From a virus: 51,352 bases of DNA. A model generated the notes under the pieces. That model was not told the origin of the DNA, did not search any database, and worked only from the letters and a program-made list of their open reading frames with translations. The translations under genes were made by a program, and so were the position numbers. Positions within the stretch are counted from its first letter, which is position 1; every line of letters starts with the position of its first letter. Below, one piece after another: positions 17,817-40,301 of this stretch. The stretch spans positions 1-51,352 of IMG/VR virus record IMGVR_UViG_3300047655_000009; one strand, given 5' to 3'.

Positions 17817-17830
17817 TGCAATTGATTGCA
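17817..17830. repeat. TGCAAT box 9 (TG core, exact)
   Basis: TGCAATTGATTGCA in the short gap between the membrane protein stop and the ATG at 17838. Confidence 0.9.
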
Positions 17831-18892: not shown

Positions 18893-19293
18893 GCAAGATA
18901 GGCCATCCGAACATCAACGCTGCTGGCTTTGCATCTGATATAGTAACCAGTTTGACCAGACGGCTAAGAGGCCAAGCAGACGCAGAAGGCAACAGTAGGC
19001 ACGCTTACACAGTTTTGCGTGACCGAATCACCGAGTTCGTTACTGATGTCTCCGATATTTTAGACAGGGAGTTCCCAGTCGATGATCCTCTCACCAGCAC
19101 TGATAGCTTATTTCCGCCAGAATTATCCGATGATGTGCTTCTACTGCGGCCAGGAGTTATTGCCATCAAAATACGTGAAGAAGACTGCCCATCAGAAGAC
19201 TCTGGACCATGTGGTAGCGCGGTCCAAGGGCGGCAGCAACAGCAAGAAGAACAAGGTGCCTTGCTGCTTCCCGTGCAATCAGTTGAAGGCTGA
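18889..19293 (+). CDS. Unknown helical protein overlapping the HNH gene
   Basis: 134 aa from GTG 18889. The first 65 residues look like a genuine helical protein (FASDIVTSLTRRLRGQADAE and VLRDRITEFVTDVSDILDRE). After about 19082 the frame runs under the HNH gene in another register, and its sequence becomes Gln/Ser-rich and less protein-like. It may be the displaced N-terminal part of the HNH protein, joined by a frameshift, or a true overlapping gene. Confidence 0.45.
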   Translation: MSKIGHPNINAAGFASDIVTSLTRRLRGQADAEGNSRHAYTVLRDRITEFVTDVSDILDREFPVDDPLTSTDSLFPPELSDDVLLLRPGVIAIKIREEDCPSEDSGPCGSAVQGRQQQQEEQGALLLPVQSVEG

Positions 19294-19531
19294 CATGCCT
19301 GCTGATAGGTTTCGCCTGGTGTTCAAGGAAGTACATGGCAAGGCTCAGTTCTTTGCAGAAATTGTGTACAGGAGACTAAAGAGTGTCAGTAGGCTTCCAG
19401 TATCGGTGCAAGGCGTGCGACAAGTTTCTGATGGGCAACGAAAAGGGTGGTCTGGTGATTCGTGCCAATATGTGCAAGCCCTGCGAGGACAAGATGGCAC
19501 CCAGTCAGGATGTAGCGGTTGTAATGCCTAA
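19082..19531 (+). CDS. HNH endonuclease
   Basis: 149 aa. The HNH signature is complete: MMCFYCGQELLP (first Cys pair), TLDHVVARSKGGSNSKKN (the DH and the Asn part) and VPCCFPCNQLKAD (second Cys pair), at about residues 17-70. An AGGGAG lies 11 nt upstream. After about residue 100 the sequence is low in complexity and overlaps the next gene by 149 bp, so the functional protein may end earlier. Likely a free-standing homing-type or DNA-processing nuclease. Confidence 0.75.
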   Translation: MILSPALIAYFRQNYPMMCFYCGQELLPSKYVKKTAHQKTLDHVVARSKGGSNSKKNKVPCCFPCNQLKADMPADRFRLVFKEVHGKAQFFAEIVYRRLKSVSRLPVSVQGVRQVSDGQRKGWSGDSCQYVQALRGQDGTQSGCSGCNA

Positions 19532-19760
19532 GTCAGATATGCAGCGCAAGATGAACTACCCGCAAGCTCTGACGCTGCTGAAGATGGGTTGCTGTGTGGC
19601 TAGGTTGATATGGCCTGGTGGCTATGTTCAGCATGATGTTGTGGCCTGCCAGTTGATGACAGTTGGTTGTATTGCTGTATATGGTGGCAAGCCGACACCC
19701 TGGAACCCCACGTATGAAGACCAGTTTGCAGATGACTGGGTGATTGTGAAAGGACTGTAA
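19383..19760 (+). CDS. Tad2-like (DUF2829) protein with N-terminal zinc ribbon
   Basis: 125 aa from GTG 19383 (GGAG 8 nt upstream). Residues 1-40 form a two-CxxC ribbon (YRCKACDKFL, MCKPCEDKM). Residues 57-125 match the DUF2829 pattern: NYPQALTLLKMGCCVARLIW, PGGYVQ, then PWNPTYEDQFADDWVIV. DUF2829 includes Tad2, which captures the cyclic ADP-ribose signal of Thoeris defence (family knowledge). An anti-defence role is plausible. The attached ribbon is unusual. The pocket residues have not been verified. Confidence 0.7.
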   Translation: MSVGFQYRCKACDKFLMGNEKGGLVIRANMCKPCEDKMAPSQDVAVVMPKSDMQRKMNYPQALTLLKMGCCVARLIWPGGYVQHDVVACQLMTVGCIAVYGGKPTPWNPTYEDQFADDWVIVKGL

Positions 19761-19888
19761 TGGAGCTGATCTCTCTAAATTTGTCTAAGCCGTGCAAAGT
19801 CTGTAAAGGTTTGAGATGGGTTCTTAAATGTTTTACAGACGTGACAGGCTGGGAGCTTGTAAAATGTTCTGCTTGTCAGTTGGACTGA
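19760..19888 (+). CDS. Tiny zinc-ribbon protein
   Basis: 42 aa, starting on the A of the upstream TAATG. CKVCKG near residue 12 and CSACQ near residue 36 form a two-CxxC ribbon. Similar mini-ribbons recur in this window (25821, 32821). Function unknown. Confidence 0.6.
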   Translation: MELISLNLSKPCKVCKGLRWVLKCFTDVTGWELVKCSACQLD

Positions 19889-19908: not shown

Positions 19909-20178
19909 ATGAACAAGCCAAGATACCAGTCTAAGAAGATTGTCGAAGCCCTGAAGATCAATGGCGTGTTTCGTGAGGTTAACCTGGCTGATACACGCGA
20001 GTACACTTCTAAAGTGTCGATAATGTTTGAGGGCACTTGGCCATCGCTACAGGGTGTCGAGACCGCTAACAGACCCATGCCGCAACCTGGCATGTATATG
20101 GTGTGGTACAGCGATGGCTATTACAGCTTCTGCCCTGGTGATGTATTCGAGAAAGAGCACACGCTCTTAGCCTTTTGA
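19909..20178 (+). CDS. Small phage protein of unknown function
   Basis: 89 aa from ATG 19909 with AGGAG at 19900-19904. The C-terminal half (PGMYMVWYSDGYYSFCPGDV) resembles a small beta-rich domain I recall from large phages, with no assigned role. The ORF extends upstream to 19828, but without a ribosome site. Confidence 0.7.
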   Translation: MNKPRYQSKKIVEALKINGVFREVNLADTREYTSKVSIMFEGTWPSLQGVETANRPMPQPGMYMVWYSDGYYSFCPGDVFEKEHTLLAF

Positions 20179-25269: not shown

Positions 25270-25824
25270 GTGACCTGTATAGTTGGCGTGATTGGTAATG
25301 GCGCGGTTACTCTTGGTGGTGATTCTGCGGCCACTAATAGTTCCTTTGAACAAGATACGCGCCTAGATGCCAAGGTGTTTAAGCGTGGCCCGTTCGTCAT
25401 TGGCTATGCGGGTTCGTTTCGTATGGGCCAGTTGATGCGCTTTAAGTTGAAAGTGGATGAACAGAAGTCCAGCATGGATGACTATGAGTTCATGGTCACT
25501 GTTTTCGCAGAAGCCGTCAGGCAGTTGCTAAAAGACTATGGTGTTGCCGGTAAAAAGGAAGAAGTTGAAAGTGGCGGTCAGTTCTTGATTGGATACAGGG
25601 GCAAACTGTACGTTATGGAAGAAGACTATAACGTAGGCATCGTGGCAGAAAAGTATGCCGCAATAGGTGGTGGCTCTGAGATAGCAAAGGGTGCCATGTT
25701 TGTTCAATCAGAAAGGCTGACCGTAAGAAAGCGCATTTTGAAGGCTTTAGAAGCCAGCGCGAGATTCCATGCCGGTACGTCAGCACCGTTCACGTTAGTG
25801 AGCATGAATGGAGGCTCTAAGTGA
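25270..25824 (+). CDS. Proteasome beta/HslV-like Ntn hydrolase
   Basis: 184 aa from GTG 25270. After removal of Met the nucleophile Thr1 starts TCIVGV; GGDSAAT supplies Asp17 and DAKVFK supplies Lys34, close to the Thr1/Asp17/Lys33 set of proteasome beta subunits and HslV. GYAGSFRMGQL and AAIGGGSEIAKGAM are typical later strands. Stand-alone Ntn proteases of this type occur in some phages with unclear substrates. No HslU-like ATPase is seen nearby. It may process virion proteins or degrade host factors (inference). Confidence 0.8.
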   Translation: MTCIVGVIGNGAVTLGGDSAATNSSFEQDTRLDAKVFKRGPFVIGYAGSFRMGQLMRFKLKVDEQKSSMDDYEFMVTVFAEAVRQLLKDYGVAGKKEEVESGGQFLIGYRGKLYVMEEDYNVGIVAEKYAAIGGGSEIAKGAMFVQSERLTVRKRILKALEASARFHAGTSAPFTLVSMNGGSK

Positions 25825-25988
25825 TCTTGCTTGTAGCAGAAACGTCTCAAGGTGTTGAAGCCATTGGTGAACAGGCCGAGCCTGGTGAATTGTTGACATG
25901 TGAAGGCTGTGGCCAAAAGGTCAAGCAGTTGTTTGAAGATGCTGGCATGAACAAGTTGTGCAAAGATTGCATCGCTTTGGGGGATTGA
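25821..25988 (+). CDS. Mini zinc-ribbon protein
   Basis: 55 aa from GTG 25821 (GGAGG at 25810-25814). CEGCGQKV and CKDCIAL form a two-CxxC ribbon after an acidic N terminus. The start overlaps the Ntn hydrolase stop, and the stop touches the HAD start. Unknown function. Confidence 0.6.
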   Translation: MILLVAETSQGVEAIGEQAEPGELLTCEGCGQKVKQLFEDAGMNKLCKDCIALGD

Positions 25989-35294: not shown

Positions 35295-35907
35295 GTGGGG
35301 TTTGTATTACGCGCATAAGGCTGATGCCTTCGCTTACACTGAGCGTTGGCGCGACGACTGCTTGCAGATTCTGCACAGGCTTCCTAAGCAAGGAACGATT
35401 GTAGACTTCGCCTGCAACACTGGCAGGTTTATTGGCCATGCTCGTGTGTATTCTCCGCAGGCTAAGTTTGTAGGCATTGACCTGAACGAGTGGGCGCTAG
35501 ACATAGCCAGGAGGCAGAACCTAGAGCCTGTTGCGCGAAAGAATCCTGCTGCCTTCTTTGACTCGATAGTAGGCATCGAGGCCGATTATGTAGTGATGAT
35601 GCATTGTCTCCCCCAGTTCGAGAAGCCTGAAGAGACATTGGCCGAGATTTGGTCTGCTTTGAAACCTGGTGGCGGCATTTCGGTGGTGATTCACAACCGT
35701 CTGAATGACTATTTGTGGGCTGTCCCGAACCTGTTTAACGGCTACAAAGCCGACGAGACCATCACGAAGAATTACAGCCTGAACGAGTTGAAGTCAACAA
35801 TGAAGGATGCTGGCTTCCTGTGTGATGAAGCCTATGCCTTCGGCAGTGAGTGGCTGCCTGATTTTGTAAAGCCAAGATTGGCGTTCCATGGAAGGAGACC
35901 GGCGTGA
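35287..35907 (+). CDS. SAM-dependent class I methyltransferase
   Basis: 206 aa from ATG 35287, overlapping the WbqC-like gene by 8 nt. Motif I TIVDFACNTGRFIG (about 37-50), the acidic ribose binder in FVGIDLNEWA (D65), and YVVMMHCLPQFEKPEETLAE as the motif IV region. It probably methylates a sugar or sugar precursor in the cluster. Confidence 0.78.
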   Translation: MTKWGLYYAHKADAFAYTERWRDDCLQILHRLPKQGTIVDFACNTGRFIGHARVYSPQAKFVGIDLNEWALDIARRQNLEPVARKNPAAFFDSIVGIEADYVVMMHCLPQFEKPEETLAEIWSALKPGGGISVVIHNRLNDYLWAVPNLFNGYKADETITKNYSLNELKSTMKDAGFLCDEAYAFGSEWLPDFVKPRLAFHGRRPA

Positions 35908-37130
35908 GCGAGTTTTTCCCAGGTGTAACCCCTGTGCTGTCTTCTGCGGCTATGTTTGGAGAGGCTGAGAAGAAGCTAATGCACGCCAGTATTGACTCTG
36001 GCTGGTTGACCAGCGGCGATTATGTGGCCAAGTTTGAGCATGACTTCGCCAAGGCTACAGGGCATGATTATGCCCTAGCCTGTAACTCAGGCTCAAGTGC
36101 CAACTTGATTGCTGTAGCCATGATGGTCGAGGCTGGTATATGGAAAAAGGGCGATGAGATTCTGTGCGTGGCTGCCAGCTTTCCGACCACAGTAAACCCA
36201 CTGCTGATGTATGGGTTGGTGCCTGTTTTTGTAGACATAGAGCTTGGCTCGTACAGCGTGAACCAAGAGGAACTGAAGGCCGCAAGAAATAATAAGACCA
36301 GGGGTGTGATGATTGCCCACACGCTTGGCTCGCCATACGACCTGGATTGGATGGCCGATTTCTGTTCCCACTGGAACCTGCCCATCATTGAAGATTGCTG
36401 CGATGCCTTGGGTAGTCGATTCAGGGGGAAAGATGTCGGTAGTATAGGACATGCCGCAACGTTTAGCTTTTACCCAGCGCACCACATCACCACTGGTGAA
36501 GGTGGCGCAGTTTGTTTGAATAACCCGAATTTGATGCGAATCGCAAGATCGGTGCGAGACTGGGGTAGAAGCTGCTACTGCCTTTCATCCCAAGAAGGCA
36601 TTTGTGGCAAGAGGTTTGAGCAACAGCTAGGAACACTGCCGTTCGGTTTTGACCACAAGTACACGTACAGTGCCTTGGGTTACAACCTGAAGATGGCCGA
36701 GGTGTCTGCTGCCTGTGGTATTGCTCAAGTTGGAAGGCTGTTTGAGTTTCACCAGCAACGTAAACTGAACGTCCAGTATTACAACGAAGCCTTTGCCGAC
36801 CTGGAGAACGAACTGATATTGCCAAGAGGCATTGATGGAGCCGACCCGTCCTGGTTCGGCTACCCGATAACGATCAGGAAGACTGGGTTGCGCCGAGAGC
36901 TACAGATGTTCTTGGATGACTGGAGGATTTCTACCCGGTTGATCTTCGGAGGAGACCTGACCAGACAGCCCTACATGCAAGGCCGCAATTTCAGGATAGC
37001 GAGCACGCTGGAAGTAACAGAAAAGGTGATGAACGATGCTCTGTGGCTAGGTGTTTACCCCGGAATCACGAAGACTATGATTGATTTCGTGTCTAGCTGT
37101 GTTCACGAATTTTTTAGGAGCCACCAATGA
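35904..37130 (+). CDS. rfbH: RfbH/E1-type CDP-4-keto-6-deoxyglucose-3-dehydrase
   Basis: 408 aa from GTG 35904. PLP fold of the DegT class, but SFYPAHHITTGEGG has His193 where aminotransferases carry Lys, as in E1 (AscC/RfbH). Cys166, 224, 226 and 234 give C-x57-C-x1-C-x7-C, the spacing known for the E1 [2Fe-2S] cluster. RDWGRSCYC, CGKRF and DHKYTYSALGYNLKMAEVSA also match RfbH. It would remove the 3-OH of a 4-keto-6-deoxy nucleotide sugar, a step needing a reductase (E3); no such gene is in the window. Translationally coupled to both neighbours. Confidence 0.88.
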   Translation: MSEFFPGVTPVLSSAAMFGEAEKKLMHASIDSGWLTSGDYVAKFEHDFAKATGHDYALACNSGSSANLIAVAMMVEAGIWKKGDEILCVAASFPTTVNPLLMYGLVPVFVDIELGSYSVNQEELKAARNNKTRGVMIAHTLGSPYDLDWMADFCSHWNLPIIEDCCDALGSRFRGKDVGSIGHAATFSFYPAHHITTGEGGAVCLNNPNLMRIARSVRDWGRSCYCLSSQEGICGKRFEQQLGTLPFGFDHKYTYSALGYNLKMAEVSAACGIAQVGRLFEFHQQRKLNVQYYNEAFADLENELILPRGIDGADPSWFGYPITIRKTGLRRELQMFLDDWRISTRLIFGGDLTRQPYMQGRNFRIASTLEVTEKVMNDALWLGVYPGITKTMIDFVSSCVHEFFRSHQ

Positions 37131-38191
37131 AATTCTTTGAGCCAAGAATTACCGAGTTCGACATGAAGGCCGTATCCGATGCTGTGGGGAAGGGTGCTTT
37201 GGCCACAGGCGAGATAACGAAGGAATTTGAAGATGCCGTTAGGCAGAGGTATCGTTACAAGTATGCTGTGGCTGTTAATTCCGGTACGTCTGCGTTGCAA
37301 CTGATGTTGATGGCCGCAGGTATTGGCCCAGGTGACGAAGTAATTGTGCCTGCCTACGGCATTATGTGTACGGTGAATGCCGTGTTGTCTGCTGGGGCAA
37401 CACCTGTGTTTGCAGACATCGATAGGTGGAGCTACAACATCGATCCTACGAAGGTTGCTAAGTTGATTGGTTTGAAAACAGCAGCCATTTTAGCTGTATC
37501 TTTGTTTGGCGTACCTTGTGAGATGAGGGCTTTGCAGGAGGCTGCCGGTGACCTTCCTGTGTTTGAAGATGCTATCGAGTGTCTGGGAAGCAAGAGGGGA
37601 GGCAAGGCTATAGGTATTGATGCTGATGCCGCCTGCTTTGGCTTCTTCCCGAACAAGCAGATAACTACAGGTGAGGGTGGTTTAGTTGTTACTGAAGATG
37701 CGGCTCTGGCACGAAGGGTGATGAAACTACGGCAGCATGGTTATGGTGAGGTCTCAAGTTTGATGACCCCTGGCTATGGTTTCAACATGCGTATGCCTGA
37801 CCTGAATGCTGCTTTGGGGCTGTCCCAGTTGTCCCAGCTAGATCAAACTCAGGCTATGCTGCGGCAAGCAAAGAGGAAGTTGGATGCAAAGTTCCTTGTG
37901 TACCATAAGCAGGTGACGACACCTGGAGACTTCGCTACCGAGTTCGTTTATGTAATTGAGCTTCCAGGGAGTATTGACAAGGTTGAGTTCATGGCCGAAA
38001 TGGAGGCTCAAGGAATCCCGACGAGGGCTTACTTTAATAGCTTGCGGCATGAACCCCATGTTGCTATGTTCCGTGGTGATACCCCAGTTGCTGATGAGGT
38101 GGGAGCTAGGACTGTTGCCCTGCCGTTCCACTACAAGTTGACGCAGGAAGACGTTGAAAAGATTTGGATCGCTTTTGAGAGGTCTATATGA
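37127..38191 (+). CDS. DegT/DnrJ/EryC1 sugar aminotransferase
   Basis: 354 aa. NSGTSALQLMLMAAGIGPGD (PLP phosphate loop), PVFEDAIECLGS with Asp148, and FGFFPNKQITTGEGG with the Schiff-base Lys177 are intact, as in active 3- or 4-keto-sugar aminotransferases. Further FNMRMPDLNAALGLSQL is typical. It would aminate the keto sugar made in the same cluster. Start overlaps the RfbH stop (ATGA). Confidence 0.9.
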   Translation: MKFFEPRITEFDMKAVSDAVGKGALATGEITKEFEDAVRQRYRYKYAVAVNSGTSALQLMLMAAGIGPGDEVIVPAYGIMCTVNAVLSAGATPVFADIDRWSYNIDPTKVAKLIGLKTAAILAVSLFGVPCEMRALQEAAGDLPVFEDAIECLGSKRGGKAIGIDADAACFGFFPNKQITTGEGGLVVTEDAALARRVMKLRQHGYGEVSSLMTPGYGFNMRMPDLNAALGLSQLSQLDQTQAMLRQAKRKLDAKFLVYHKQVTTPGDFATEFVYVIELPGSIDKVEFMAEMEAQGIPTRAYFNSLRHEPHVAMFRGDTPVADEVGARTVALPFHYKLTQEDVEKIWIAFERSI

Positions 38192-38853
38192 AGAAGTTGT
38201 TTATTTCCCCGCACCCAGATGATGTTGAGATAGGTTGCGGGGGTTCCATTGCAAGATTTGTTGCTGGAGGCCATGTCTGTGACATCGCTGTGGCTGTTGG
38301 TGATGGTGATTTGAAGATGCGTCATTCTGGGGAGGTTGTCCCATTTCAGAAGCGTATCGATGAACAGCTTGCCGCAGCCGGGGTGCTTGGGGTAAGTACG
38401 GTTCACTGGCTGAACATAGCTAAGGCTGCCCATCTTGACACGGTGAGTTTGGCGGTTGGGACAACGGTTCTTGATAAGTTGCTGGCGGAAGAGAAGTATT
38501 CCGAGGTGTACATCCCGCTGCCCAGCTACAATCAGGACCACCAGTATGTTTGTGACATGTGCATGGCAGCTACTCGGCCACCGGGCAGGTACACCCTGTT
38601 TATGTATGAGCAGCCGACGCAGTTTCATGGTGTGCAATCAATTGCAACCTTCGCGTCCAGGTTCTATGTAACGTTTTCGCCAGCAGAGCAGGAAAAGAAG
38701 GAAAAGGCCCTTAGTTGTCATGTTTCCCAAGTAAAGGGAAGGCAAGAATCGATCACCGGGTTGCGTGGCCTGCGGTTGCTTGCAGAGTTGCGTGGCGCTG
38801 AAGTTGGCCGGATGTATGCTGAGATGTTTCACCTGTTGAGGCAAGTGATATGA
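38188..38853 (+). CDS. PIG-L/LmbE-family deacetylase
   Basis: 221 aa. FISPHPDDVEIGCGGS (H9, D11, D12) is the zinc-binding motif of the family, and the later LPSYNQDHQYVCDM supplies a third His. Family members remove acetyl groups from N-acetyl sugars. In this cluster it may expose an amine on a GlcNAc-type intermediate. A TGCAAT box is internal. ATGA overlaps at both ends. Confidence 0.88.
   Translation: MKKLFISPHPDDVEIGCGGSIARFVAGGHVCDIAVAVGDGDLKMRHSGEVVPFQKRIDEQLAAAGVLGVSTVHWLNIAKAAHLDTVSLAVGTTVLDKLLAEEKYSEVYIPLPSYNQDHQYVCDMCMAATRPPGRYTLFMYEQPTQFHGVQSIATFASRFYVTFSPAEQEKKEKALSCHVSQVKGRQESITGLRGLRLLAELRGAEVGRMYAEMFHLLRQVI
38633..38646. repeat. TGCAAT box 19 (CA core, exact)
   Basis: TGCAATCAATTGCA in the deacetylase gene, read as VQSIA. 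Confidence 0.9.
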
Positions 38854-40301
38854 AGGTGCTTTTTGACTGCATTGTAACCCAGAATCCGGCCAGTAAGTGT
38901 TCAACGACTGCCCAGTTCGTTACGTTGGCAGAACTGTTGCTCAAGCATGAAGACGTGTTTATCTACTGGCCAGTGCCTGACCGTCTTGAGAGTGCTGATT
39001 TTCTGACCACGTTTCCGCAAGACCCAAGAATCAAGTATTTCAAGGTGCCCCAAGTGAAAGACAGAATGCGTGAGTACACTCATGTGTCGCATGAGTTTGA
39101 AGCGATTCTGTCGTTCTCAGGAGTAGCGTGGGACTGGGATGTAATGGTAACTGTGAGGACGCCACAGGTGCCTTGGATGAAAGTTCACGCTCTGTCGCCA
39201 CGTAATGTTGGCCGCAGGGACTGGTCGAAGCGTATCCTGGTCATTGAAGACATGATGGTTTTGAGCAAGAAGCCTACGATAGCTCAGTCCTGTATAGACA
39301 TCCAAGACAGGCAGACCATCGAGGGGTATTTTGCTGCCGACAAGGTGTTGGTGCCCGCCTACCATGAAAAAGGTTGGGTGCTAGAGATTGCTAGACAGCA
39401 TTTTTCCATGGCACGAGTAAGGGACTTGTCTGGTAAGTTGCAAGAGGTCTGTCACTTAACGCTGGAAGACTTCCATCTGAAAGATGAGTTCAAGTACCAG
39501 CCTGGTAGAAAGATGAACGTGGTGTACATCGGGCGCTTGGAAAGAACGAATGCCAGGTTGGAAGTTGTCAGCGGAGTGCTGGCGAACCAGTTCATTCTGC
39601 ACAGTGACGTGATTAACCCGATTGTCTGCACGGTAAGTCCAGATGGTAGTCCTGGTGAATCTAAAGTTGACACAGACGTTATTGAGATCATTCGTCCTTC
39701 AAGGCAGGAGTTCTATGACTTATCGGAGAATACGTTTGATCTTGGGGTGTTTTTCCATATCGATATTGAGTTGTCCATGTCGATGCTGGAACCTGTGTCC
39801 AAGGGAATGCCAGAGATTGTGAAGAAGGCCCCGTGGTCGGTGGGTATGTTTGGGACTGATTACCCGTTTTATGTGAACACTGAGTCTGAAGCCTATGCCC
39901 TGGTGTCTGCCTTCGCCAAAGACTATGAAGGCATGTATGCCAAGTTTGCAGCCTGGTTTGAGAGTTGGTTCGTGCCTGTTTACACAGACCGTATTGCGAA
40001 GCAAGGCTTGTACAGCCAGCTTGAGAAGCTGATTCTTGAGGAGCAAAAGCCAGACGCTACCGGCTCAATGGCCAGAAACGAAGTTGTGGGCCTGCTCAGT
40101 AAGTTCCCAGAGTTTGTGATGATGGACAAGATCAAGGAGCTTGCAGACACCAGTCTCACCTCGCTAGGCACCAAAGTAGGCCAGGAGTTCGATGAACGAG
40201 GTTTGGTTTGGAGCACGGCCTGGAATGAGTTTAGGCTGGCTTTGAAATTGTTCCATGGGTACAAAGATGCTAGTGTTGAGTTAGGTCACTTGAGGCGCTA
40301 A
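38850..40301 (+). CDS. Putative GT-B glycosyltransferase
   Basis: 483 aa. The middle carries a GT-B-like second domain: MNVVYIGRLERTNARLEVVSG at its start and a later LSMSMLEPVSKGMPEIVKKA, corresponding to the sugar-nucleotide-binding E-x7-E area of GT4 enzymes. The first third is a divergent acceptor domain, and the C-terminal 100 residues are helical. It likely transfers the cluster's finished sugar. Assignment rests on fold pattern and location. Confidence 0.6.
   Translation: MKVLFDCIVTQNPASKCSTTAQFVTLAELLLKHEDVFIYWPVPDRLESADFLTTFPQDPRIKYFKVPQVKDRMREYTHVSHEFEAILSFSGVAWDWDVMVTVRTPQVPWMKVHALSPRNVGRRDWSKRILVIEDMMVLSKKPTIAQSCIDIQDRQTIEGYFAADKVLVPAYHEKGWVLEIARQHFSMARVRDLSGKLQEVCHLTLEDFHLKDEFKYQPGRKMNVVYIGRLERTNARLEVVSGVLANQFILHSDVINPIVCTVSPDGSPGESKVDTDVIEIIRPSRQEFYDLSENTFDLGVFFHIDIELSMSMLEPVSKGMPEIVKKAPWSVGMFGTDYPFYVNTESEAYALVSAFAKDYEGMYAKFAAWFESWFVPVYTDRIAKQGLYSQLEKLILEEQKPDATGSMARNEVVGLLSKFPEFVMMDKIKELADTSLTSLGTKVGQEFDERGLVWSTAWNEFRLALKLFHGYKDASVELGHLRR

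Follow-up and report, generated by a model that had tools for sequence, protein, structure and literature searches.

A phage protein that joins a predicted two-CxxC zinc finger to a Tad2-like domain with replaced pocket loops

The DNA considered here, an IMG/VR virus contig (IMGVR_UViG_3300047655_000009, 50% GC, no tRNA found) that was analysed over its whole length of 51,352 nucleotides and is referred to as the window, encodes a protein in which an N-terminal module with two CxxC pairs is fused to a Tad2-like domain (PF11195, formerly DUF2829), and in which two loops attributed to the ligand pocket differ from those of solved Tad2 proteins. The reading that we tentatively prefer, plausible if somewhat short of probable, is that of a counter-defence sponge with a Tad2 fold and a re-tooled pocket, to which a zinc-finger module was added for partner binding or oligomer stability. 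Its C-terminal domain would adopt the Tad2 fold, probably assemble as Tad2 does, and thereby bind and hide a small nucleotide-type signal of the host; as the pocket is changed from that of the binders of gcADPR, His-ADPR, or cyclic dinucleotides, the ligand would probably be another signal or a modified one. The N-terminal module, in turn, may bind zinc and could offer a partner-binding or oligomer-stabilising surface. The coordinates of the gene and its neighbours are collected in Table 1.

Table 1. The two-CxxC Tad2-like gene and its surroundings in the window.
Feature	Coordinates	Strand	Remarks
HNH endonuclease ORF	19082..19531	+	stretch after ~19381 looks non-coding in the HNH frame
Shine-Dalgarno-like AGGAG	19370..19374	+	8 nt 5' of the GTG at 19383
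Two-CxxC zinc finger (predicted) + Tad2-like (PF11195) protein	19383..19760	+	125 aa, GTG start
N-terminal module, residues 1-56	19383..19550	+	CxxC at 9-12 and 31-34
Tad2-like domain (PF11195), residues 57-122	19551..19748	+	Pfam match
Small two-CxxC ORF	19760..19888	+	42 aa; start codon and Tad2 stop share TAATG; codon score weak
Partner-domain protein	19909..20178	+	89 aa; phrog_11049 E 1.8e-7; phrog_872 E 0.0037

Reading frame and the N-terminal module

The HNH endonuclease ORF overlaps 149 nt of the N-terminal module, which raises the question of which of the two frames is real. Within the overlap, the Tad2 frame has a codon score of +0.33 to +0.35 (5-95% range of true frames, 0.11 to 0.47) and the HNH frame one of -0.30 (off-frame range, -1.18 to -0.17), while the HNH body, upstream of 19381, has a score typical of coding sequence. 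Codon usage thus assigns the zinc-finger part to the Tad2 frame and marks the overlapping 3' tail of the HNH ORF as non-coding, and on these grounds we reject the view that the HNH frame gave rise to the two-CxxC stretch as an artefact. The last 50 codons of the HNH ORF (19082-19531) look non-coding and a TAA lies at 19377-19379 in another frame, so that a frameshift near the HNH end, either natural or from assembly, is conceivable. Since a related contig (L153, see below) has no HNH match at that place, the HNH gene may be an inserted endonuclease.

The two pairs, C9-x2-C12 and C31-x2-C34, are separated by 18 residues. Such an arrangement is rare by chance: two CxxC arose in 0.3% of trials when the 56 N-terminal residues were shuffled, were present in 11 of the 3250 open 56-aa windows of all six frames, and occurred in no 56-aa window of the contig's large proteins. 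Both knuckles are conserved in L153, the sole homologue found with this architecture. The first-pass annotation had described the module as a two-CxxC zinc ribbon. While the CxxC pairs and their coding frame bear this out in part, the ribbon as a fold is at most a candidate, for no Pfam family matches the module and the AlphaFold2 (AF2) model of the module alone (pLDDT about 52) is too low in confidence for a fold search; the safe wording is a predicted "two-CxxC zinc finger". Elsewhere in the window, a further small two-CxxC ORF (55 aa) is found at 25821-25988.

Family and fold of the Tad2-like domain

A Tad2-like (DUF2829) domain had been proposed for residues 57-125, and the HMM search suggested as a check indeed places PF11195 at residues 57-122 (E 4.9e-11), spanning the whole domain (profile positions 1-73 of 73) and scoring 43.5 bits where the gathering threshold is 25. 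It is the sole PF11195 match in the 51-kb contig; PADLOC and NCBIfam gave no match to the protein. The conserved family residues R74, W77, W107, D113, D118, and W119 are all present.

The AF2 model, a single chain built from 62 sequences, has a mean pLDDT of 66, with 80-93 in the best Tad2 stretches and mostly <50 for residues 83-96. Residues 52-124 of this model superimpose on SPO1 Tad2 (8wje) with Z 8.4 and 1.9 A over 65 residues, and similar values were obtained for 8smg (Z 8.2), SptTad2-cGG (8wjd, 8.2), and ModTad2-hisADPR (9eib, 8.0); all ten Tad2 entries listed gave Z 7.3-8.4 at 1.8-2.0 A over 59-65 residues. Foldseek alone reached a best E of only 0.04, and its best 23 matches are all Tad2-family entries. 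The model thus predicts a Tad2 fold, with low confidence in the mid-domain stretch 83-96.

The solved Tad2 structures comprise SPO1 gp34.65 (8sme, 8smf, 8smg, 8wje), ModTad2 (9eib), HgmTad2/AcrIIA7 (8kbi-8kbm), and SptTad2 (8wjd). The window protein shares with them the PF11195 family, the predicted fold (Z about 8, 1.9 A), and the conserved R, W, D, and DW, but has only ~30% identity in the structure alignment, a shorter middle insertion, replaced loops, and the extra N-terminal two-CxxC module.

Pocket loops and possible ligands

Known phages deploy the Tad2 fold as a sponge for bacterial immune signals. The ligands so far described are gcADPR (SPO1), cyclic dinucleotides, and His-ADPR (MoTad2) (PMC12043709, PMC13299392), whereas 3'3'-cGAMP is not bound by SPO1 Tad2 (PMC11722364). 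To the pocket, one protomer contributes loop b1-b2, loop b3-b4, and strand b4, and another protomer its own loop b1-b2 together with loop b4-a3 and helix a3 (PMC12043709). From this description and the alignment, rather than from contact lists, we infer that the WNGKG stretch of the solved proteins corresponds to loop b1-b2 and the SQTD (S-Q/V-x-D) stretch to loop b4-a3. In the window protein they align with WPGGY and TYED, respectively, and in the two-CxxC protein of L153 the same two loops read WFSRS and NTKD. Among 194 sampled Tad2s, a set in which canonical members are over-represented, the N of WNGKG is kept in 180, and the S and Q of SQTD in 179 and 176, respectively. If Tad2 in the strict sense is taken to be a homotetramer with inter-dimer pockets that is marked by the loops W-N-G-K-G and S-Q/V-x-D, the window protein falls outside it by its loops; the domain is a member of PF11195 that we do not class as an anti-Thoeris Tad2.

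These substitutions bear directly on the earlier proposal that the protein sequesters the cADPR messenger of Thoeris. With both pocket loops replaced, such sequestration cannot be assumed, and the proposal is not supported, although the fold is kept. The same annotation had named the lack of a DUF2829 match or the loss of pocket residues as grounds for giving up its view; the match is there, and at the sequence level both loops are replaced. An orthodox anti-Thoeris sponge, which would still bind gcADPR or His-ADPR, tolerate the loop changes, and use its zinc finger as a mere stabiliser, would agree with the retained R, W, D, and DW residues and with an AF2 model that fits gcADPR-, His-ADPR-, and cGG-bound structures equally well. 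Against the exchange of WNGKG and SQTD at positions so widely kept in the sample, however, we regard it as unlikely.

In some Tad2s, a site apart from the gcADPR pocket accepts cGG and other dinucleotides (PMC12043709; PDB 8kbk, 8wjd), and the window protein might accordingly capture a cyclic dinucleotide or another CBASS/Pycsar-type signal through this second site, known from HgmTad2 and SptTad2. The insertion from strand 2 to strand 5 to whose length this site is ascribed (PMC12043709) is short in the window protein, and a sponge of this type appears decidedly improbable.

A related phage and the spread of the gene

A survey of Tad2 loci yielded one contig with a protein of the same build, namely L153 (IMGVR_UViG_3300048014_000011, 62.6 kb), which encodes a 121-aa two-CxxC Tad2 protein at L153:595-957 (125 aa in the window). 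The two contigs are 62% identical in TerL, 62% in ParB, and 42% in the gene that immediately precedes TerL and, judged by its position, may encode the small terminase subunit. They also have a gene order in common, which runs from a homologue of the window gene at 17826 through the two-CxxC Tad2 protein, a small Cys-rich ORF, and the partner-domain gene to ParB, the gene before TerL, and TerL. The two-CxxC Tad2 proteins agree in architecture, length, the four cysteines, and gene position, and the fusion claimed by the first-pass annotation is both correct and conserved in a related phage. L153 differs from the window in that no HNH gene was found in front and that the partner domain further downstream forms one protein with a canonical Tad2. 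The synteny favours one origin of the fusion; in a tree of Tad2 domains, the branches are too long to tell one origin from two.

The closest named phages by terminase and ParB are Stenotrophomonas phages of the genus Delepquintavirus (DLP_5, DLP_3, and Summit; TerL 57-58%, ParB 53-54%). The window shares with its Stenotrophomonas phage relatives an apparent cluster of sugar-nucleotide aminotransferases, a deacetylase, and a glycosyltransferase (35904-40301), and it further encodes a proteasome-subunit-like protein (25270-25824; PF00227, E 1.3e-4, just under the cut-off). Unlike the window, DLP_5 and Summit have no PF11195 match; neither do Rhizobium phage RHph_TM16 and Vibrio phage KarBoss, the other two of four complete named relatives, and the domain was found in 0 of 39 other TerL-related phage records, many of which are fragments. 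The Tad2-like gene is therefore accessory. A single-sequence search of IMG/VR gave no close relatives of the whole window protein; a single-sequence scan likewise gave no related TerL, but related TerLs were recovered once an alignment served as the query. Tblastn in named phages and plasmids returned nothing beyond weak Tad2-domain matches, and a two-CxxC Tad2 profile was searched against 754 whole genomes, drawn by class around a Pseudomonas genome (369) and an Azospirillum genome (385), where it hit a single protein with Tad2 only, besides one spurious match.

This patchy distribution, the mere 23% overall identity of the two homologues, and a partner domain that in the window lacks a Tad2 half of its own would all be in keeping with a decaying or recent fusion product devoid of selected function. 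The ORF, however, is intact, is preceded by a good ribosome site, and has a normal codon usage, all four cysteines are conserved in the relative, and we consider decay very improbable indeed.

Operon partners and other Tad2 architectures

The small ORF that follows the Tad2-like gene in the window is replaced in L153 by a different small Cys-rich ORF. The product of the next gene (19909-20178) matches the first half of phrog_872, the second half of which is Tad2, shares 37% identity with the N-terminal half of L153's second Tad2 protein, and ends about where a Tad2 half would begin. The window hence holds both domain kinds of a common fusion, as separate neighbouring genes and in one operon, which is an independent link between the gene and the Tad2 family. 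It departs from phrog_872-type proteins in that the partner domain stands alone and the Tad2-like domain instead carries the two-CxxC module. At L153:595-1764, the divergent two-CxxC Tad2 and a canonical Tad2 with a phrog_872-type front lie side by side with the small Cys-rich ORF between them.

The N-terminal parts of the two homologues are only 16% identical, and four of the nine identical positions are the cysteines. It could therefore be asked whether the Tad2 fold is a scaffold only, the zinc finger being the working part that binds DNA or a host protein such as RNA polymerase, while the Tad2 domain takes up no small molecule. The cysteines as the best-conserved part of the N-terminus, the altered pocket loops in both two-CxxC members, and the small Cys-rich ORFs that follow them in both operons would fit such a role; the retention of W, D, and DW in the Tad2 core and the nearby Tad2 partner domain would not, and we judge it somewhat unlikely.

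The first-pass annotation had regarded Tad2 as mainly a single small domain, a view that did not hold in our sample: at least 40 residues precede the domain in up to 59 of the 194 Tad2 ORFs, an upper bound given that the most upstream start was used and some contigs were counted twice. These fronts are often of the phrog_872 type, but some resemble DUF4406 or are themselves another copy of Tad2, as exemplified by a tandem Tad2-Tad2 (L070:1270-1785) and a DUF4406-like-Tad2 protein (L075:1171-1758; DUF4406-like E 0.0011, below the cut-off). N-terminal fusions are accordingly common in the sample and the two-CxxC one is rare, as it was seen in the window and L153 only. A Tad2 at L019:2387-2722 has another Cys-rich N-terminus (CDCWYDGKPCCRCG) with the pattern CxC..CCxxC; this front and that of L178, with one CxxC, have patterns of their own and were not taken for the same module. 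The AcrIIA7 entry 9kzr (158 aa) also has a longer N-terminus as deposited, which may not be native.

Conclusions

Summed up, the sponge with a changed pocket that we tentatively prefer draws on the domain match, the reading frame, the fold match, the four conserved cysteines, the synteny, the conserved fusion, the adjoining Tad2 partner domain, and the divergence of the loops. Counting against it are the difference of both loops from solved Tad2s, the low confidence of residues 83-96, and the accessory nature of the gene. The canonical Tad2 beside the divergent one in L153 would be expected if the two bind different things. By extension, and as a speculation that we hold to be rather doubtful, two-CxxC Tad2-like proteins may form a sponge subfamily for a different ligand, which in one of these phages accompanies a canonical Tad2 and would let a single operon deal with two immune signals, with the zinc module docking the sponge on the signalling enzyme or locking the oligomer. 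In any case, the modules found in front of the Tad2 domain include a two-CxxC one in addition to the commoner N-terminal partner. Sponge proteins reveal which signals bacteria use, and a Tad2-fold protein with a changed pocket, accompanied by a canonical one in a relative, is a concrete candidate for signals beyond those of current Tad2s.
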